Below are positions 38,266 to 49,467 of a stretch of 64,000 bases of DNA, in pieces. Positions within the stretch are counted from its first letter, which is position 1. Every line of letters starts with the position of its first letter. Under the pieces are notes generated by a model, which saw only the letters and a list, made by a program, of their open reading frames with translations, was not told the origin of the DNA and ran no database searches. This DNA is from an uncultured Prevotellaceae bacterium (lineage in GTDB: Bacteria; Bacteroidota; Bacteroidia; Bacteroidales; Bacteroidaceae), in the NCBI GenBank assembly GCA_946411565.1, contig CAMKEM010000005.1:1-64000 (forward strand), given 5' to 3'. The position numbers were made by a program, and so were the translations under genes.

Positions 38266-38298
38266 AAAAGCGTATCCCTCAAGAGAGATACGCTTTAT
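38266..38298 (-). terminator. Terminator of the six-gene envelope operon
   Basis: AAAGCGTATCTCTCTTGAGGGATACGCTTTTTC on the minus strand. Confidence 0.8.
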
Positions 38299-38306
38299 AT
38301 CTTGCA

Positions 38307-39995
38307 TTAAATTGGTCTATGTTCAGCTCTCATACGAGCAGCAGTCTTTGGCTGACCCTTTGCACATGCATTGAAAATCTGATCTCCAATGCTATATGTC
38401 AAATCAGAATCCATCATATAGAGGGCATACTTCATAGCACTTTGATATTCCTTATTGTAGAAGTGGTACATGCCAAGATACTGAGCAGCAACAGCCCAAT
38501 ATTGTTCATCAGCAGCATCACGACTAGGGTTAGCAGCCTCAAGATTGAACAGCTTGGTAAACTGATTAAGAGCCTTACCAGTTCCAGGATTTTCCTCAGT
38601 CTGAGAAAGCATATACGCATGGTTGTAATAGATCTTACAAACTGTAGGATCTGTAGGGAACTCCTGCTCAATCTTTGTGAACAAATCCAACAGTTCACGC
38701 TGTGCAATACTCTTCTCTGTAGAATCTTCAGCCTTTTGATACTTCGTTAAGAGAATCTCTGTCAAGTTCAGCCAATCATCGATTGTTACATCATTAGGAT
38801 TCTTCTTACTCTTCTGATATTCACGGATATGAAGTGCTTGATCAAACTTTCCTTGCGCCATTAAAGCACTAACAATCTTACCAATATCACCTCTCATTGT
38901 ATTATACTGAGCTGCAGCAAGATCACGCTGTCCCATAGTGATACCCAAATCCTGTGAAAGATCAAGACCAACATCAAGACCTTCTTGCAATTTATCAATA
39001 GCAGCCTCTAATCCTACATTACCAGTACTAAGACTATCTATACTCTCCAATGAGAACATTGAAAGTGCTAGATAACGATAATCGTAAGGCATATAATGAT
39101 AATGAAGCTTAGCTGTATCTGCACTCTGGAAAAGCTCATTAGCATTCTTGATAGCATCCTGATAACGCTGCAAGCCATAGTTTGCAGCAAGCATTATACT
39201 AAGGAATCGAGGATCAGTAACCTCCTGTTCATGTGCAAAAGTAGCTACACTAAGAATCTTTTCACGATAGAAATCCTTCTCATCAGGTTGCTTAGACAGG
39301 TCAACTGCATAGTCCAAAGCATTACAATAAGCGTTGAGTTCATCAAGTGAGAGATTCTCGTTGCCCTGTTCTTCATAGGTATAGATACCTTTCTTAAGAA
39401 GAGCCAACTTTGTACCGAGTGTATCAGCAGGAGCTTTCTTTGCAATAGCAACCTGAAGAGCAGCTATTGTACCACCGATCTTGAGGTCAGGACGCTGATC
39501 GCGAAGCAAAAGGAACTGTCTCAATACGCCCTCAGGATCCTCTGATGACTTCATTGCAGCATAATATTCATAAGAGTCAGGATAAAGAGGATTGACCTCC
39601 ATCGCCTTCTTAAAATAGATGAGAGCAGTATCTCTGTAAGCAGAATCTCCATAGTGATCAAACTTATACTGACAATGCCTACCGAGAAGCACGTATGAAG
39701 GAGCGAAGTCTGGCTGAACCTCAAGAGCCTGCATTGCATACTTCTTTGTCTTATCAAAGTCCTGGTTCATATTGTAAGCCTCGGCAATACCAAGAAGAAC
39801 TGTAGGGTTCTTACGGTTTACAATTGCAATACGATATGCAAGTGTATCTGCATAGTTTGCAAACTCTCTGATAGTCTCAGCGAGCGCACCAGTAAGTGCC
39901 TTTACATCAGTCTGTGCATTAGCTGGAGCAGCAAATGCTCCAAGCAGAAAGACTGAAAGGATGATATGTTTGAAAAATTTCATTCTATTATGCAT
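38307..39995 (-). CDS. TPR-repeat periplasmic protein
   Basis: 562 aa; signal peptide; TPR-like units (KKYAMQALEVQPDFAPSYVLLGRHC...YFKKAMEVNPLYPDSYEYYA). Confidence 0.8.
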   Translation of the reverse strand: MHNRMKFFKHIILSVFLLGAFAAPANAQTDVKALTGALAETIREFANYADTLAYRIAIVNRKNPTVLLGIAEAYNMNQDFDKTKKYAMQALEVQPDFAPSYVLLGRHCQYKFDHYGDSAYRDTALIYFKKAMEVNPLYPDSYEYYAAMKSSEDPEGVLRQFLLLRDQRPDLKIGGTIAALQVAIAKKAPADTLGTKLALLKKGIYTYEEQGNENLSLDELNAYCNALDYAVDLSKQPDEKDFYREKILSVATFAHEQEVTDPRFLSIMLAANYGLQRYQDAIKNANELFQSADTAKLHYHYMPYDYRYLALSMFSLESIDSLSTGNVGLEAAIDKLQEGLDVGLDLSQDLGITMGQRDLAAAQYNTMRGDIGKIVSALMAQGKFDQALHIREYQKSKKNPNDVTIDDWLNLTEILLTKYQKAEDSTEKSIAQRELLDLFTKIEQEFPTDPTVCKIYYNHAYMLSQTEENPGTGKALNQFTKLFNLEAANPSRDAADEQYWAVAAQYLGMYHFYNKEYQSAMKYALYMMDSDLTYSIGDQIFNACAKGQPKTAARMRAEHRPI

Positions 39996-40003
39996 CTAAA
40001 GGT

Positions 40004-43000
40004 TTATCTAAGAGTATAATGAACACCTAAGTTGATAGTCTGCATCAGAGTTGAGCGTCCCATGAAGTGATGCTGTCCACCACGATTCAAGATATAGATT
40101 GTTGGCTGACAGAATGCAGCAAAACGATCAGCAATCTTACGAGAGATACGGATACCTGCATGAGCACCAATACTTATGTCCTTTGCTCTAAAGTCAGCAT
40201 CAAGACCTCTAAGTTTGTCAGCATCCTGGAAATATACAGTAGGACCAATAAATATGTCGTACTCTGTAGTACGTGGACGGAAACCACCCATGAGAGTTGT
40301 AAGGTTCGCATTGAAACTAGCAGAAAGAAGTCCCAAATTTACAACCCTTGCAGATTGCATATCGCTTCGTCCAACAAGCTCATAAGTCAAACGACCTGCA
40401 AAATATTCTGTGAAACGATATTCACCGAAGAGCATACCCTGACCACCAGAAATGAAGCCCTTAGAACCAACAGCTCTAGAATTGTGACCACGATAACTAT
40501 GGAACATATTGAAACCACCAGCAATACCAAAACGCATACGAGATGAAAGCCATGGCTTGAAATCGTACATAGCGCTGATATCACGCATCTCACGATATTT
40601 CTCTGTACGGAGGTTCATACCAAAACCAAGCTTGATTGAGTGACGTCCCTGATTATTGTCATCAAACACCCATGATTCATATACAGGATCTTGTGGTCTT
40701 GTAGAACTTGCTGTAGAATAGAGATATTCAATAAAGACATTCACGTCATCACTAAGCTTATACCAAGGATGAATACCAAAGTTTAAGTTTGTGATATTCT
40801 GTCTCAAAAGGTTAAATCCATCATCTACAGGCTTCTTATTGATATTAGCAGAAGTCATAAATCTATGCATATTCTTCTTGCCAAAACCAATACCAACAAA
40901 GCCATAAACGCCCCATGGATCATCCCATGTAAAATCTCTGAAGAAACCCATTGGGTTTACAAGCAAATCAACTCTTCCACCAAGGTAGTTCTCGTTGAAG
41001 AACTCAGTTCCACTCATAAGAGGGTTATCGCCTTTATTGCTTCCCCACTCATAGTAGCCCCATTCAGTAGAACGACGGGTAAGTGTACCTCTGAAACCAG
41101 CAACCGGAGCGAACCACTTACCTACAGAAATACTACTTTCATAACCTATACCGAGTTTTGAACCTCCAACAGTAGGATCCTGATTCTCAGCAGAAGTCAT
41201 ACAGATACCAGATGAAGCCTCCACGAAGAGAGGGTCACGCCAACGCTCAATATCAAGAGAATCCTCGAAACTTGAGAGACGCTTAGCTGGAGCAAGTGCA
41301 TACTGAACACCAAGATTGAATGTCTGGAGTGACTGCCAATTACCACCCAACTTAGGTGCATGACTGCCATACTTAACATTTCTAAGAAGATATGCAGAAG
41401 GCATAAAGTAAACAGATGCCTGATTTGTAAATCTATAGCTCAAACGAAGATTAAGATTACCACCAAGCTTAAGATCACTATCTGTTACTGGAAGTTCAGG
41501 ATTTCCCAAAACAACCTTTGCAGTTTCACCTGTCAGCCAAGAAGCAGTCAAAGCAATACCACCATCTACATCCCACTTACGGTATGGATCTACACCACGC
41601 AAAAGGCTTGCAAGATGGAAAACTGGTCCTACATTAAATAATGACATATGTGATGAGTGCTTGATAGCATAACCACCATCCCATTTTGACTTCTGATTTC
41701 CTTCAACATCGCTTAAATTAACATATTCCATACCAATTCTGGTTGAGAAATAGTGATTAAAACGATATTCACCGAACAAAGAGAAACCACTTACATAAGC
41801 GTCTTTCTGCTCCCTAAGATATGGATAATATGTCTGTTGACGCTGAAGGTATGAAGCGCCCACACCAAGTGTCAAACGAGAAGCGACATTTGGATAAACT
41901 GGAAGTTCTTCAGGAAGATAAGTATCACGATACTTACGAGCCTCACTTGTAACGGTAAAACCAAGGTTTACATCAATATTATAACGCTTTGAGAGTCTAG
42001 CGATTCCTTCGTATCTTGTCACATGTGGCTCAACAAAGACCTGAACGCCCTTATCAACGCCGTACCATCCATGAACACCAGCCTCAAGATTGATTATATT
42101 ATGTCTTTCAAAAGAATTTACGCCCTTATATTTCTCAGAGCGACCAATACTCAAACCACCCAAAAGATAAGCTCCATACTTGGAATTCCAATCATAGTAC
42201 TTTCCAAATCCGAAAGGATTAATTATACCTTCTACACGAAGACCACCCCAAGAGTAACGATTTGACATCTGGTAACCATCTCCCTGATACGTCTTAATAT
42301 ATTCCGCATTACGACCAGTAAAACCTAATCGCATACCAAAAGCAGGTGAGAACCACTTACCGACAGCAACAGCGGTATTATGGCCACGATGACCAAAGGA
42401 AGCACCAGTCTGGAAATCAATGAAATAAGGATTTTGCCAAACGCGAAGTTTCTCTACGTCAGTCAAACCAGCATAATGCCATGAACTACGGATTCGATTC
42501 CAAGCCTCAGGACTATTATGATCACGAAGATAGTAAGCATAAGTACCACGAACGCCATAAAACAGGTCATACTTGTGCCAGTTACGCTTAACAGAATTAT
42601 CGATCTGGTCAGAAGCAACACCAACATATGGCTCTATAGAGAAATAGCTTCTTGGACCTCCATAAATACCAAGAGAAAGGCCAAAGTGTGCATTTACAGA
42701 GAACTTAGCACCTTTCATCTCATTTGCCAACCAATCTCCCTCTGCGTATGATGATTTAGTAAAACCAAATCCAATACCTCCGAATGCACTAATATTTACA
42801 GGACGCTGAGGATTATAACCTGCAAAGTATGTTGACAAATTATACATATAGTCAATGTTACCATTAACCATATAGAATCTTGAAATATTTCCAGAGTATG
42901 GACGTAATGCATTTTCCAGATTCACGTAAAAACGAGCACTACTAAGTGGAGTAAAGTTTTTACCAATACCAAGATGAGCATTCTCCATTACGTTGAGCTT

Positions 43001-43339
43001 GAATCCCTCAACTCCACCTATTTTCTGCAAGCCAAAACCACCCATAAAGTAGAAATGATCCCAAAAACTCTTGCTTGTAAACGTATCACCTGAAGGCAGG
43101 AAACGATCCTCAATGATATAATCATGAGCATTCAACTGTCCTTCCTGCTGAGCACGATTAATCTTACTCAACTTTGTGACATCTTTACTTGCAATGAATT
43201 CCTCCTCATCAATGTCAGTGGTATCAATGGCAGCAGTATATGCATCTCTAGAGGATAGAGAAGCCTTTGCTACCGCATTCACTGCGGCGCTACTAAACAG
43301 CATGGCTGCCAAAGCTATGATATATTTTGTCTTATTCAT
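40004..43339 (-). CDS. Large outer-membrane protein with repeated beta-barrel units
   Basis: 1111 aa; recurrent blocks INPFGFGKYYDWNSKYGAYLLGGLSIGRSEK..., VNPMGFFRDFTWDDPWGVYGFVGIGFGKKN... and an N-terminal related block. Confidence 0.75.
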   Translation of the reverse strand: MNKTKYIIALAAMLFSSAAVNAVAKASLSSRDAYTAAIDTTDIDEEEFIASKDVTKLSKINRAQQEGQLNAHDYIIEDRFLPSGDTFTSKSFWDHFYFMGGFGLQKIGGVEGFKLNVMENAHLGIGKNFTPLSSARFYVNLENALRPYSGNISRFYMVNGNIDYMYNLSTYFAGYNPQRPVNISAFGGIGFGFTKSSYAEGDWLANEMKGAKFSVNAHFGLSLGIYGGPRSYFSIEPYVGVASDQIDNSVKRNWHKYDLFYGVRGTYAYYLRDHNSPEAWNRIRSSWHYAGLTDVEKLRVWQNPYFIDFQTGASFGHRGHNTAVAVGKWFSPAFGMRLGFTGRNAEYIKTYQGDGYQMSNRYSWGGLRVEGIINPFGFGKYYDWNSKYGAYLLGGLSIGRSEKYKGVNSFERHNIINLEAGVHGWYGVDKGVQVFVEPHVTRYEGIARLSKRYNIDVNLGFTVTSEARKYRDTYLPEELPVYPNVASRLTLGVGASYLQRQQTYYPYLREQKDAYVSGFSLFGEYRFNHYFSTRIGMEYVNLSDVEGNQKSKWDGGYAIKHSSHMSLFNVGPVFHLASLLRGVDPYRKWDVDGGIALTASWLTGETAKVVLGNPELPVTDSDLKLGGNLNLRLSYRFTNQASVYFMPSAYLLRNVKYGSHAPKLGGNWQSLQTFNLGVQYALAPAKRLSSFEDSLDIERWRDPLFVEASSGICMTSAENQDPTVGGSKLGIGYESSISVGKWFAPVAGFRGTLTRRSTEWGYYEWGSNKGDNPLMSGTEFFNENYLGGRVDLLVNPMGFFRDFTWDDPWGVYGFVGIGFGKKNMHRFMTSANINKKPVDDGFNLLRQNITNLNFGIHPWYKLSDDVNVFIEYLYSTASSTRPQDPVYESWVFDDNNQGRHSIKLGFGMNLRTEKYREMRDISAMYDFKPWLSSRMRFGIAGGFNMFHSYRGHNSRAVGSKGFISGGQGMLFGEYRFTEYFAGRLTYELVGRSDMQSARVVNLGLLSASFNANLTTLMGGFRPRTTEYDIFIGPTVYFQDADKLRGLDADFRAKDISIGAHAGIRISRKIADRFAAFCQPTIYILNRGGQHHFMGRSTLMQTINLGVHYTLR

Positions 43340-43399
43340 TTTCTTTATAAAGCTGGTTATATATCAGCGATTATGTAGTTTCCTGATTTATTTGACGAT

Positions 43400-46000
43400 T
43401 TAATTACCTTGCTCTGTCTTAGTTTCTGTATTATCCTGCGCAGGCTGTTGTCCAGCGTTAGGATCCGCAGCATTCGCAGTCTGATCAAGATTGAGATCAA
43501 CGCTCAAATCGTCATCATCACCTCCACTAACAGTAATGTCCTCTTCATTCTCAGACTTTCCATCATCTGATAGTACAACAAGATCATCGAAACGCTGCTC
43601 ATACTTTGCAAAATCTTTCTTCTTATAAAGATAAAGCTTTCGAAGATCATCACTTATCTGACCATCATTAAAGTAATAATACTTATAACTTGGTTCCAAC
43701 TTGAAAGAATGGTGGAAGTAAGCGAGATAATCAGGAATATAATTAGGACGGGCAACCTTCGTGTTCTTGAAACTCTCTGCACGAGCCGCCATAATACCCT
43801 TCATATACCACTTCTTTGCATTATTGTTATCCATTGCATTAACAAGGGAATCAATATGCTGCTGAGTGAGTCCCAACTGCTTAATTGTCATCAACTCAAG
43901 AGCTGCCTCTGTATAGAATACAGCATGATTATCTGCATGAGATGAAAGCACCTCCTCCATTTCCTGGAGGTATGAATTTGTCTCTGATGGAGACATCTGC
44001 TTTGTCACACACTTCATGAAACGATCCTTGAAATTGATAAACATACGAAGCTTAGCAACCTTTGGATCATTCTGCTCAGATGCCTTACCAAACCAGAAGT
44101 TCATATAACTCTGAGCACTATCACGCTCATCCTTCATATAATATGTAAGAATCTGGTTAATAAGAATCTCACGACGATTCTTCTGAGCGACATCAGTATT
44201 ACGAGCTGGTCTGCCCTGTACTCTTGAACTACGTGTGTTAATAAAAGGACGAAGGATGTTGAGATCAGGCGCACCCTCTCTCATCTTTAGAATAGCCATT
44301 CTGTTTGCACAATACATAGCAAACTTGACATTCTCATAACCCAAATCCTTTGTTACGTGTCTATAAGCAAGACGAGTAATAATATCCTGATCCTCCTTGT
44401 CCTCAATTACGTCAAAGAGGTTATAATAGTCACCATCAGAAAGATCCTCCTTGCCATCAATAAGATTCTGCTTATGCTCATAATAGAACGCAGCAACCTC
44501 AGCGCCATTCATAATGTGCTTACGCTCATAGCGGTAAGTACAACGCATACGACGCATTGACTCAAGGATTGGTACAATATATGTATCATAGAAAGGAAGA
44601 AGACGGATACTACTTTCACCAGATGTTATAGCAGTACGAAGCGAATCTGCCTTATCCTTGTTTCCCTCACTATCAAGTTCCTTTGCAACATCATCCCAGC
44701 TATATACTCTTGGAGCCTGTTTGTTGAAACTTACATCAGCCTTACCAAGACCATTGCGAAGAATATTGTAAGCTACATCAAGACGACCAGAAGCAAGTTT
44801 ACGGTTAGCCTCATAACCACCATCAGGAGAAGCTGTAGCTTCAATTGAAACCTGCATCAAAAGATCACCATACGACTTCAACTCTTCAAGGAATGTATCA
44901 CGAATAGAGTCGTTCTGGGCATCTTGTATAAGAACAGACTTACCAACCTGGAAACGAAGTTTGATATCCTGATTCTTTGTCTCAAAGTTCTCATCAGCCT
45001 GAGTCGCAAACTCATCAAGATCCATATCTGCCTGAGAAACTGCGAGATTAAGGAACTTATAATAATTTTTCTTTGTACAAGAAGATGTACTTGCCCAGTC
45101 TGCCAAATAGATATGATGATAGTCCGCTACCTCAAGGAGATAAGGGAACTTATAGTCCATACTTGGGGTACGCTTCTTATATATTACAGTAGTATCAATA
45201 TCCACACGATTATGGATATTCAGAATGATGTTACTAGAATAGTAATCCTTCAACTTATCGTTTTTACGATAGTTGTAACCCATTCGACGATCCTGAAGCT
45301 CATGATATTCAGCACCCTCATAGCAAAGACCTTTTACGAAATCAACAGTATCACCAGTCTCACACTCCACAGCATAAGGCTGAATAATAAGACGAGAGTC
45401 TTCAGCAACCATGCCTGCAGGAAGATGCACAACAATTGGAATATAACAATGTACACCATCATCAAGAGCTGGAGCTGCAACAAGACTCAAAGTATCACGG
45501 CTCTGTCCCTGTACCTCAACGTTACTAAGAGTGTGATTTCCCTTGAAGTCAATCTTCTTCTCATGAACATGGATATACTCTGTCTGACCTGCAACAGTCT
45601 CAATTACAATGAAGTCAGCACCATCAGAGGTAAGGTCATCGTCTGGATCAAAAGAAGTCACAAGCAATGCCATACCAGGATACTGAACACGGACATTGAA
45701 AGTACCATTAGCCTTTGACTTCTTGAAGTTCAGGTTATACTTAGTGACAGCTTCATCAAAGGCAAGAGGATTAGTACCATTTGTTATCTCTGGCATAGTA
45801 GCCTCAAGAATAGCCTTAATATCATTAGCTTTCTTCGATGTCTTGAAGAGAGCATAACGAAGTGGCTTGGTGGTAATCTCATCACCAGTCTTGAACTGAA
45901 CCTTGACACTAGCAGTAAATGGCTCATCACCTTGTGCCATAAGTGTATTACTTATAGCAAAAAGCAACATTGTCAAAAGTATAAATAATTTCTTCATCAT
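43400..46000 (-). CDS. 866-aa envelope protein with OmpA-like segment (DUF3868-like architecture possible)
   Basis: Signal peptide; VSIEATASPDGGYEANRKLASGRLDVAYNILRNGL matches the OmpA C-terminal pattern. Confidence 0.65.
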   Translation of the reverse strand: MMKKLFILLTMLLFAISNTLMAQGDEPFTASVKVQFKTGDEITTKPLRYALFKTSKKANDIKAILEATMPEITNGTNPLAFDEAVTKYNLNFKKSKANGTFNVRVQYPGMALLVTSFDPDDDLTSDGADFIVIETVAGQTEYIHVHEKKIDFKGNHTLSNVEVQGQSRDTLSLVAAPALDDGVHCYIPIVVHLPAGMVAEDSRLIIQPYAVECETGDTVDFVKGLCYEGAEYHELQDRRMGYNYRKNDKLKDYYSSNIILNIHNRVDIDTTVIYKKRTPSMDYKFPYLLEVADYHHIYLADWASTSSCTKKNYYKFLNLAVSQADMDLDEFATQADENFETKNQDIKLRFQVGKSVLIQDAQNDSIRDTFLEELKSYGDLLMQVSIEATASPDGGYEANRKLASGRLDVAYNILRNGLGKADVSFNKQAPRVYSWDDVAKELDSEGNKDKADSLRTAITSGESSIRLLPFYDTYIVPILESMRRMRCTYRYERKHIMNGAEVAAFYYEHKQNLIDGKEDLSDGDYYNLFDVIEDKEDQDIITRLAYRHVTKDLGYENVKFAMYCANRMAILKMREGAPDLNILRPFINTRSSRVQGRPARNTDVAQKNRREILINQILTYYMKDERDSAQSYMNFWFGKASEQNDPKVAKLRMFINFKDRFMKCVTKQMSPSETNSYLQEMEEVLSSHADNHAVFYTEAALELMTIKQLGLTQQHIDSLVNAMDNNNAKKWYMKGIMAARAESFKNTKVARPNYIPDYLAYFHHSFKLEPSYKYYYFNDGQISDDLRKLYLYKKKDFAKYEQRFDDLVVLSDDGKSENEEDITVSGGDDDDLSVDLNLDQTANAADPNAGQQPAQDNTETKTEQGN

Positions 46001-46067
46001 TCTTATATCTGCTCCTAAACTGACAGACGACTATTATTGATTATACGAAATTGTATATGAAAACTGT

Positions 46068-46631
46068 TTACTTTAAAACGTACGAAATGGAAAGTCCGAT
46101 TCGAGTTGGAAGAAGATAGTATCCATTAGCGTTTGCCTTGGTAATACCCTGTTCTGGTGAATCCTGATCATAATGAGCATTTATGAAATGCTCCTTCTGG
46201 TTGTAGTATATTGCACCATAACCAGCATGGAAATCAAGACTAAGACGACGAGTAATGTTATAAACATAACCAAACGTTAAACCAGCACCAACTGCATCGC
46301 CCCTATAGGTTTTGTTCTTCCATTCAATATTATAACGTCCACCTATAGCGCCAAGTCCCATGAATATTCCATGCACTGGTCGATGAGAAAGATAGTAACG
46401 GAATTCAGGCTGAACGACTGTCGCCTCGATATTCTTTCCCATTCCCTTCCATGCATAGATAAAATTCACGCCAAAAGAGGTCTTATTGCCTGTAACAATT
46501 TCCATACCAAGTGATGGAGCCATAAGAGCATCCATTGCAAGGTCTGTATTTACAGCTACCATCTGAGCCTTAACACCCAGTGATACCACAATAGCACATA
46601 CTATAGAGAGTATTTTCTTCATTCTTTTCAC
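46068..46631 (-). CDS. DUF3575-like outer-membrane beta-barrel protein
   Basis: 187 aa; MVAVNTDLAMDALMAPSLGMEI...PEFRYYLSHRPVHGIFMGLGAIGGRYNIEW. Confidence 0.75.
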   Translation of the reverse strand: MKRMKKILSIVCAIVVSLGVKAQMVAVNTDLAMDALMAPSLGMEIVTGNKTSFGVNFIYAWKGMGKNIEATVVQPEFRYYLSHRPVHGIFMGLGAIGGRYNIEWKNKTYRGDAVGAGLTFGYVYNITRRLSLDFHAGYGAIYYNQKEHFINAHYDQDSPEQGITKANANGYYLLPTRIGLSISYVLK

Positions 46632-46635
46632 TTAA

Positions 46636-47538
46636 TTAAAATGTAATATCTCCAAGTTTAATGACACTACGATTCACGCCATTGTCATCTTGACCATCAA
46701 CTACTGTGTAACGAACAGTCTTCATCTCTGGAGCCGTTGATTTATCCGCATTCAAATAGCGCACATAGATATTTGCAGTACCATTCTTCGAAACGCCAAG
46801 AACTATCAAAGATGATTTAATTTCTCTTTCTCCACCCTTCTTTATTCCATTATAGGTAAGTATGCCCTTTAGCTTTTTACCTCCAGCGACGGAACCATTT
46901 GGACGCTTTTGCGCTACAATATCGCATATCTCCACATAGATTTTATCGATATAGTTAGTTGCCTTAATTGTTCCAGAAACAAGATAATCCGTCGTTAACG
47001 TATAAGGCTTTTCATATGAAACATTTACATCTTGCCCCAACTTAACATCAACCAACTTGGTTGAGTCACCACGAAGAACACCTCCACGAAGTCTTGCATA
47101 CTTACCAGAAAGAACTTTCTTGACTCCTTCATCAGAAATATTAGTCAGTTCCTCTGTCTTATGTGCAATTATCACATCGCCATAATAAAGACTATCATTA
47201 GGAAGTTTATTAAAATTCAAATTAGCATAGTCAAAATCAGCTTCATCCTTATTAACGGCATAGAACTTATATTTACCTACAGGAACTTCTCGTAGTATTT
47301 GCCCATTCAAACTACAAATGAAAGCCTTATTATAATTTCCAGTAGTATTTGTTGCAAAAGCAACTGGGGTGCCTTTCCAATCAGGATGCATAGTTAATGT
47401 CACAATAGTAGCTTTCTTCTGCTCAGCAAGTTCTTCTTCAGAAATAGCATCAACTTGCGAACATGAAGCAAATGAGGCTGAAACCACAGCTACTGACAAT
47501 ATATGTTTAAATATTTTATTCATTTTGTCATTCTCCAT
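46636..47538 (-). CDS. DUF5119-like lipoprotein
   Basis: 300 aa; lipobox SFASCSQ; TLTMHPDW...GTPVAFATN...ILREVPVGKYKFYAVN. Confidence 0.65.
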   Translation of the reverse strand: MENDKMNKIFKHILSVAVVSASFASCSQVDAISEEELAEQKKATIVTLTMHPDWKGTPVAFATNTTGNYNKAFICSLNGQILREVPVGKYKFYAVNKDEADFDYANLNFNKLPNDSLYYGDVIIAHKTEELTNISDEGVKKVLSGKYARLRGGVLRGDSTKLVDVKLGQDVNVSYEKPYTLTTDYLVSGTIKATNYIDKIYVEICDIVAQKRPNGSVAGGKKLKGILTYNGIKKGGEREIKSSLIVLGVSKNGTANIYVRYLNADKSTAPEMKTVRYTVVDGQDDNGVNRSVIKLGDITF

Positions 47539-49304
47539 TATTTATTTTCCTTTGCAGCCTTGGCAGCAGCTTTCGCCTCTGCCTCAGCCTTCTTCTTTGC
47601 TTCCTTTTCTGCCCTAGCAGCTTCCTTTGCAGCTTCCTTCTCAGCCTTTGCTCTTGCCTTAGCCTCTTCCTGTGCCTTCTTCTTTGCATCACGATCAGCC
47701 TTAGCAGCCTCGGCCTTAGCATCAGCATCGTCCTCGTCTACATCATCATTGTCATCATTATTATCATAATCATCATCGTCGCTATTGAGCATCTGACTTT
47801 GCTTCTTCAGTTGCTCAGCGCGTTTCTTCTTTGCTTCCTTTTCCTGCTTTTCGAGAGTACGCTCCCACTCCTTCTGCTTGGCGATACGTTCCTTCTCCTT
47901 AGCAGCTTCCTGAGCATCACGTTCCTTCTGGAGAGCCTTCTGCTGAGCATCGTACTTTCTCTGTTCTGCATAAGCCTCATTCATACGCTTACGCTTCTCT
48001 TCCTCGTACTTTCTGTTTTCCTCAGCCATCTGCTTCTCCATAGCCTTTTCTTCTGCGCTCTTCTGCTTCAAGAGAGCCTTCTCTTCTGCATCAAGAGCCT
48101 TCTCAAGCTTACGTTCCTCAGCAGCCTTCAACTTGTCAGCCTCAATCTGTTGACGAACCTGTTCCTCCACCTTACGAGCATTAGCCTTATCTACGAGAGC
48201 AATACTATCCTCCTTAGCCTTCTGCTCCTGAGCCTTTATACGCTCTTCACGCTGTTTCTCACGAGCCTGCTCCTGAATCTTACGAGCCTGCTCCTCACGA
48301 GCCTTGTCAGCCTTACGTTTCATATCACGGGTATCTGCCAACTTCTGGTCAAGAACACTCTCGTGATTTCTCATATTAATAATAAGGAGAGAGTCATATT
48401 TGTTCTGGTAGAAACGATAAATTCTCAGGTAGTCCTGATCTCGCTTACGCAACTCTGCACGATAGTCGAGTTCAGCAAGTACCTTTTCCTGATATGCCAA
48501 ATCTACGTCATATCTCCAACGATACTTATTATATATATTAGCCTTGCCAAGACGATACACAAGTCCGACACGTGCCTCAGTCAAGATTGGGAATGGCACA
48601 ATTGTCAAACCAGACTTAGGCTCAGTAATAGTATAAGTCGAAGTCTGACTATCATGGCTAAACTTTTCATAGTCCGTAAGACAGAAACCTGCGCTGAAGC
48701 CAAAATCAAGGTCAACGCTCTTTCCGCTTGGGAATATATAAAGAGGGCGAATCACACCATACTGAAAACCCAAGGTATATGCCTGTCCCTGTATTCCCTC
48801 CTTACCGAAAAGGAAAGAATAGTCATCATACGCCAAATAAGCACCACGATACCAAGTAGTACGAGGATGCTTTGGACGACGACGACGGCCTGAGAAGATT
48901 TTCTCATAGGTATGACGGTGTGGGCCAAGATCGTTGGTAGTCTTTCGGGTACGCCAATAGTTACGGAATTCTGCGCGAACCTCGAACAAATTATACACAA
49001 CGCCTGGATTATAGGTATGCTTTGTATTCCAATTACCCCTGACATTAAGTCCAATGGCATTACGACTCCAGTTGTATCTACCAAGATCAACTTCGATACC
49101 GGCATTGGCCAAAAGCATCATCCAGTCGAAACCATTTGTACGAAGGGAAATACGATCGCTAAATGTAAGCGAATCGAGCTTATGATCATCTGCCATCTTC
49201 TTCTGTGCAAAAACACATGAAGATGATGCAAGCATCATAAGCAGCACGCAATATTTCAGCCCTTTTAAATTCACTGTTTTAATCAAAACTTTAATATATA
49301 ACAT
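47538..49304 (-). CDS. DUF3575-like beta-barrel fused to ~300-aa K/E/A-rich coiled coil
   Basis: 588 aa; N-terminal barrel; C-terminal EEQARKIQEQAREKQREERIKAQEQKAKEDS...AKAAAKAAKENK. Confidence 0.75.
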   Translation of the reverse strand: MLYIKVLIKTVNLKGLKYCVLLMMLASSSCVFAQKKMADDHKLDSLTFSDRISLRTNGFDWMMLLANAGIEVDLGRYNWSRNAIGLNVRGNWNTKHTYNPGVVYNLFEVRAEFRNYWRTRKTTNDLGPHRHTYEKIFSGRRRRPKHPRTTWYRGAYLAYDDYSFLFGKEGIQGQAYTLGFQYGVIRPLYIFPSGKSVDLDFGFSAGFCLTDYEKFSHDSQTSTYTITEPKSGLTIVPFPILTEARVGLVYRLGKANIYNKYRWRYDVDLAYQEKVLAELDYRAELRKRDQDYLRIYRFYQNKYDSLLIINMRNHESVLDQKLADTRDMKRKADKAREEQARKIQEQAREKQREERIKAQEQKAKEDSIALVDKANARKVEEQVRQQIEADKLKAAEERKLEKALDAEEKALLKQKSAEEKAMEKQMAEENRKYEEEKRKRMNEAYAEQRKYDAQQKALQKERDAQEAAKEKERIAKQKEWERTLEKQEKEAKKKRAEQLKKQSQMLNSDDDDYDNNDDNDDVDEDDADAKAEAAKADRDAKKKAQEEAKARAKAEKEAAKEAARAEKEAKKKAEAEAKAAAKAAKENK

Positions 49305-49434
49305 TTTTAACCCCGAACATGTCTACCACACATAGGAGTGTTCTTACTTTCTCATTATCTCCTAACTAACTGAAATAGTAGCAGTTACAACCAACTCCAC
49401 CAACAGAATCAGTATGAAGACCCTAAAACTGCCT

Positions 49435-49467
49435 GCAAAGTTAAATATTTTTAATTGATTATGCAAA
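49435..49467 (-). promoter_or_regulatory. Promoter of the six-gene envelope operon
   Basis: TTTGC-N19-TAACTTTGC on the minus strand, ~130 nt before the first gene. Confidence 0.6.

Follow-up and report, generated by a model that had tools for sequence, protein, structure and literature searches.

Organization and conservation of the six-gene locus

Six open reading frames, here called g1 to g6 in order of transcription, lie on the minus strand between positions 38267 and 49467 of the window, the 64,000-nucleotide stretch of DNA that was analysed. All six are present, with gaps of -1, 4, 67, 60 and 8 nt between neighbours. A search of the window for the Bacteroidota promoter pattern TTTG-N17-21-TANNTTTG gave 12 matches compared with 1.4 expected, and one of them (49436..49467, minus strand) precedes g1, with TTTG at -33 and TAACTTTG at -7. 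This promoter block is nearly invariant in seven relatives (alignment A8). At the other end, an intrinsic terminator (38267..38296, minus strand) with a 13-pair stem and a T-rich tail lies about 10 nt past the g6 stop codon. Simple sigma-70 and terminator scans of the whole window were overall not above shuffled sequences. Taken together, the reading frames, gaps, promoter pattern and hairpin agree with the single envelope operon proposed in the first-pass annotation. Purifying selection acts on each of the six genes (dN/dS 0.05-0.32), indicating that they are real and in use. The fastest-evolving gene is g2 (omega 0.25-0.32 versus 0.05-0.18 for most of the others), which fits an exposed surface part.

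The 5′ leader between the promoter and the g1 start (49305..49435, minus strand) is strongly conserved in the same alignment of seven relatives and contains a possible GGAG/CTCC hairpin, and the first g1 codons are conserved even at wobble positions. A consensus fold of the leader showed almost no covariation, and comparison of the leader with Rfam gave no match.

The synteny search showed that the order of the block is kept in about 65 loci of the genus, so the lack of conservation that would have counted against the first-pass annotation was not seen. For these comparisons, the genes of relatives were taken as mechanical ORFs and their lipoproteins were recognized by a simple lipobox pattern; the ORF filter concealed some of the g3 genes, and these were checked afterwards. 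The window genome is a Prevotella-lineage MAG that is 84% complete, and many of the compared genomes are drafts. The nearest named relatives of the window genome are rumen MAGs. Synteny of the block holds in these relatives, where identities are mostly 64-94% for g1 and g3 to g6 and 53-71% for g2. In one relative (L032) the block is kept while its upstream neighbours differ, and g2 is absent between g1 and g3.

Envelope proteins of the conserved module

The g1 product (47538..49304, minus strand) consists of a DUF3575 barrel at about residues 49-223 (PF12099, E=1e-8) and a tail of about 320 aa that is rich in K, E, A and R and varies in length among homologues; g1 opens the block in most of the loci that carry pilins. 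A second DUF3575 protein is encoded by g3 (46068..46631, minus strand, GTG start; PF12099, E=2e-35), and g6 (38307..39995, minus strand) encodes a secreted TPR protein with a signal peptide (TPR_17/TPR_14, E about 3e-6). In most relatives g6 adjoins the block, and in some it lies upstream of g1. These assignments bear out the barrel with a long charged segment, the DUF3575-like barrel and the TPR protein that had been read from the letters. The DUF3575 companion that is a feature of type V pilus loci is present as both g1 and g3. In canonical pilus loci of the same genus, DUF3575 proteins pair with DUF3868 proteins, and in B. theta DUF3575 and OmpA-like/DUF3868 companions occur near an Mfa1 C-terminal-domain gene (BT4227-BT4236; PMC10434189). 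The search for literature on DUF3575 itself returned mentions in expression tables only.

Further DUF3575 arrangements were seen outside the block. In the window genome, a third DUF3575 match falls in a 503-aa protein (L081, 1562-3073, G000:C25), the N-terminal part of which resembles the OmpA-like part of g4 and the gene for which adjoins one encoding 2873 aa. In another genome (L080, G043:C19), two divergent proteins, each with OmpA-like and DUF3575 segments, lie amid many lipoproteins and are fused versions of the g3-g4 pair.

The g4 product (43400..46000, minus strand) is a secreted, probably periplasmic protein of 866 aa. Alignment A1 divides it into an N-terminal region, an OmpA-like domain at about 335-490, a long C-terminal region and an acidic tail. 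The OmpA-like segment fell below the Pfam cut-offs in the window copy and is weak in a homologue (PF00691, E=1.3e-3), and a search with PF12984 (DUF3868) gave no match to g4 or anywhere in the genome. The g4 profile nevertheless aligned with the DUF3868/OmpA proteins of canonical loci over 266 columns (hhalign probability 91.6, E=8e-7). These results suggest that g4 is distantly related to the DUF3868/OmpA-like companion of DUF3575 in canonical loci, and the OmpA-like segment proposed earlier can be kept on the strength of the homologue and the profile comparison, not of a Pfam match in the window copy. Designed TIM barrels in the PDB that matched the g4 profile were discarded as spurious repeats. 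In two relatives (L034, 9229-11875, and L207) g4 is found in two overlapping frames of 505 and 384 aa, reflecting either a real frameshift or an assembly error.

OmpA-type domains use an Asp and Arg pair for diaminopimelate. Positions assigned by motif alignment showed that in g4 the Arg is kept (R406, invariant) and N399 is conserved, whereas the usual Asp is replaced by Ser (S391) in all nine aligned homologues. The peptidoglycan binding that had been assigned to g4 is therefore doubtful.

The 1111-aa product of g5 (40004..43339, minus strand) is predicted to be a multi-barrel outer-membrane protein. A self-BLAST of g5 found no repeats, but repeat HMMs found five of about 190 aa each, of two alternating types (X 85-290, Y 300-477, X 488-689, Y 699-920 and X 936-1110), in agreement with the repeated barrel noted in the first-pass annotation. 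In the AlphaFold2 model, which is of moderate confidence (pLDDT 68, pTM 0.52), DSSP assigned 40 strands, that is, five sets of eight. Both results would fit separate barrels in one chain. Within the genus the family follows the formula X-(Y-X)n with n from 1 to 4, giving three, five, seven or nine repeats.

That g5 forms one giant secretion pore, a barrel with about 40 strands, in place of five small barrels is very improbable. The top Foldseek matches of g5 were indeed large single barrels (LptD and TonB-dependent receptors), but with TM scores of about 0.1 they are uninformative and amount to no global match. Moreover, the homologous units of about 190 aa carry eight strands each and are gained pairwise, and in one homologue (L020) four OMP_b-brl matches fall in four separate stretches. 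Weak matches of g5 to single-barrel proteins of about 380 aa in the genus and the order were taken as background similarity among outer-membrane proteins. In three loci (L021, L155 and L177) the g5 repeats are split over two adjacent genes, as if repeats could work as separate chains.

The variable pilin slot

The g2 gene (46636..47538, minus strand) encodes a 300-aa lipoprotein (lipobox ..SFASC) with a predicted pilin fold. In relatives, the interval between g1 and g3, referred to here as the pilin slot, holds zero, one or three to five lipoproteins, several of which score above the cut-off of PF13149 (Mfa_like_1), a fimbrillin family (best E=2e-15). Seventeen relatives with four lipoproteins between g1 and g3 were compared position by position, and pilin profiles split by position were built from these loci. 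The pilins of position 1 match DUF5119, one above cut-off (L174, E=3e-7) and three others more weakly.

Direct searches with g2 (Pfam, NCBIfam, PHROGs and PDB sequences) gave nothing useful, with no Pfam match. In an hhalign comparison of g2 with a mixed Mfa_like_1 set or with 422-aa single pilins, the signal peptide alone was aligned, a problem resolved by splitting the profiles by position. The split profiles showed that g2 matches the position-1 pilins over 283 columns (hhalign probability 98.6, E=4e-15), does not match those of positions 2 and 3, and matches those of position 4 weakly (E=8e-6). The position-1 profile likewise fits the lone lipoproteins of 422-432 aa seen in other loci (E=9e-28). 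The AlphaFold model of g2 has a pLDDT of 67, mostly 80-94 from residue 180 on. Foldseek returned 11 PDB matches with E below 1e-3, all of them Bacteroidota pilin or adhesin entries, with modest TM scores of 0.27-0.42; the second was the P. gingivalis Mfa2 anchor (5nfi).

Judged by profile and position, g2 corresponds to the pilin at position 1 of the four-pilin loci, which is DUF5119/Mfa2-anchor-like, and the Mfa2 match suggests that position 1 may be that of the anchor pilin. The lipobox, the Foldseek matches with their modest TM scores and the position-1 match thus identify g2 as a lipoprotein pilin with a FimA-superfamily-type fold. The DUF5119-like character given to g2 earlier is supported through its positional family in relatives, which hits DUF5119 above cut-off, whereas the statement that no fimbrillin, anchor or tip gene is visible does not stand, since g2 itself is a pilin and curated fimbrillins occupy the slot in relatives. 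Shaft, anchor and tip are not found together in the window block: the only pilin in its slot is the anchor-like one, and shaft and tip pilins are missing from the linked genes. Fimbrillin-type genes, unlinked to the block, are present elsewhere in the window genome.

It could be supposed that the block is a degenerate pilus locus heading for loss and without present function, given that one pilin remains and that L032 has no g2. This is quite improbable, as every gene is under purifying selection, the promoter is conserved and g5 is longer than in four-pilin loci.

A large pilin repertoire was observed in one genome of the same genus (G024; L076, L077, L078 and L083), where a single contig carries 12 DUF3575 and DUF3868 pairs. 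In the pairs that were read, lipoprotein pilins follow, and an ORF of 307-311 aa stands ahead of several.

The g3-g4-g5 core and its relation to type V pili

Homologues of g5 with E below 1e-40 were found in about 73 of 398 genomes of the genus, and in an order-wide sample strong g5 matches were confined to the genus. The surroundings of nine weaker matches in other families were read, and eight of them showed adjacent DUF3575, g4-like and g5-family barrel genes. These trios in other Bacteroidales families mostly lack pilins, g1 and g6, and most have five to eight repeats. Because the trio stands alone there without pilins, g3-g4-g5 appears to be the oldest recognizable core. Pilin-free loci also occur inside the genus, in an 18-row clade and elsewhere. 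In a g4 tree (FastTree; several long branches, branch order uncertain, root not inferred), the window clade is placed among pilin-bearing lineages.

The comparison of loci showed that the conserved module, as predicted from their genes, consists of two DUF3575 proteins (g1 and g3), OmpA-like g4, multi-barrel g5 and the TPR protein g6, and that the pilin slot between g1 and g3 varies in content. The pair g3-g4 corresponds to the DUF3575-DUF3868 pair that precedes the pilins in canonical loci. On the grounds of the conserved order, the pilin slot and this homology, we consider the window block to be probably a pilin-locus variant, namely a reduced member of the Prevotella-lineage, type V pilus-related pilin loci, encoding an outer-membrane platform for export, anchoring or assembly. 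The first-pass annotation had described a trans-envelope system of unknown function that shares parts with fimbrial loci. Its parts list is borne out by the gene contents, and the sharing by DUF3575, the OmpA-like companions and the pilins in the slot of relatives. Its view of an undescribed system gives way to that of a locus not unrelated to pili, and its verdict of unknown function, partly right otherwise, yields at the level of locus type. A match to a fimbrial locus was found at family level, but no characterized locus with g1, g5 and g6 was found.

As to how such a platform might work, g3, g4 and g5 could together form it in the outer membrane, while g4, g6 and the long g1 tail in the periplasm may link it with the cell wall or act as chaperones for its cargo. 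The platform would bring pilin-type lipoproteins to the surface and keep the appendage fixed at its base. Since the window block has the base pilin alone, its product might be an adhesin complex that forms a stub on the surface, or else a base that receives pilins from other parts of the genome. We further advance, tentatively, that g3-g4-g5 is an undescribed outer-membrane machine, widespread in Bacteroidales, for the export or anchoring of pilin-type lipoproteins, and that the barrel count (three to nine) determines how large it is.

Since the core occurs without a linked pilin both in the genus and in other families, pilins are dispensable to it, and it may serve a different purpose. The pilin-free loci therefore make a general scaffold the main rival: g3-g4-g5 would be an array of barrels that stabilizes the envelope, with g4 and g6 linking it to the cell wall and with pilins as optional passengers that attach to it. 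The pilin-free trios of several Bacteroidales families favour this idea, and a barrel number ranging from three to nine in the genus and from five to eight outside suits an array better than one pore. Longer g5 proteins were also seen only where the slot holds zero or one pilin; when this link was tested on the g4 tree, however, long g5 had at least two origins and the link, comprising two independent events only, was not significant. In relatives that bear pilins, the operon itself accommodates them, in the interval from g1 to g3, and the window clade falls among such lineages. We therefore regard the scaffold as rather unlikely, and an outer-membrane platform for pilins as the preferred interpretation.

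These loci bear on the way in which type V pilins arrive at the cell surface and on what holds them at the outer membrane. The conserved gene order links the pilins with particular envelope proteins, one of which carries three to nine barrels in a row, making the question of a pilin platform testable by single-gene deletion, and the loci also supply a genomic context for multi-barrel outer-membrane proteins. If the proposal for g3-g4-g5 is true, the trio would be a dedicated outer-membrane platform for a class of pili thought to have none.

At the outset type V pilins are surface lipoproteins, and the set consists of anchor, stalk and tip (PMC12632263). Protease-mediated strand exchange and visible filaments are further marks of such pili. 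The window group resembles the type V pili of P. gingivalis (FimA/Mfa1), B. thetaiotaomicron, B. fragilis and B. ovatus in its lipoprotein pilins of predicted FimA-superfamily fold, and the canonical loci of the same genus in its DUF3575 and OmpA-like/DUF3868 companions. It differs in adding a second DUF3575 protein with a charged tail, a protein of three to nine barrels and a TPR protein, and the window block contributes just one pilin, of the anchor-like type. For the type V pili known so far, chaperone and usher are described as absent (PMC5954841), so that a dedicated platform would break with that pattern. Compared with OmpA-like peptidoglycan-associated domains, g4 has an OmpA-like region with N399 and R406 but, by motif alignment, S391 in place of the usual Asp. 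Several barrel domains in one chain were proposed by Solan et al. (2021), as cited in PMC8592465; as far as that citation describes them, g5 shares with such proteins the several predicted barrel domains per chain, but varies by added Y-X pairs within one orthologous family and is encoded in a pilin locus.
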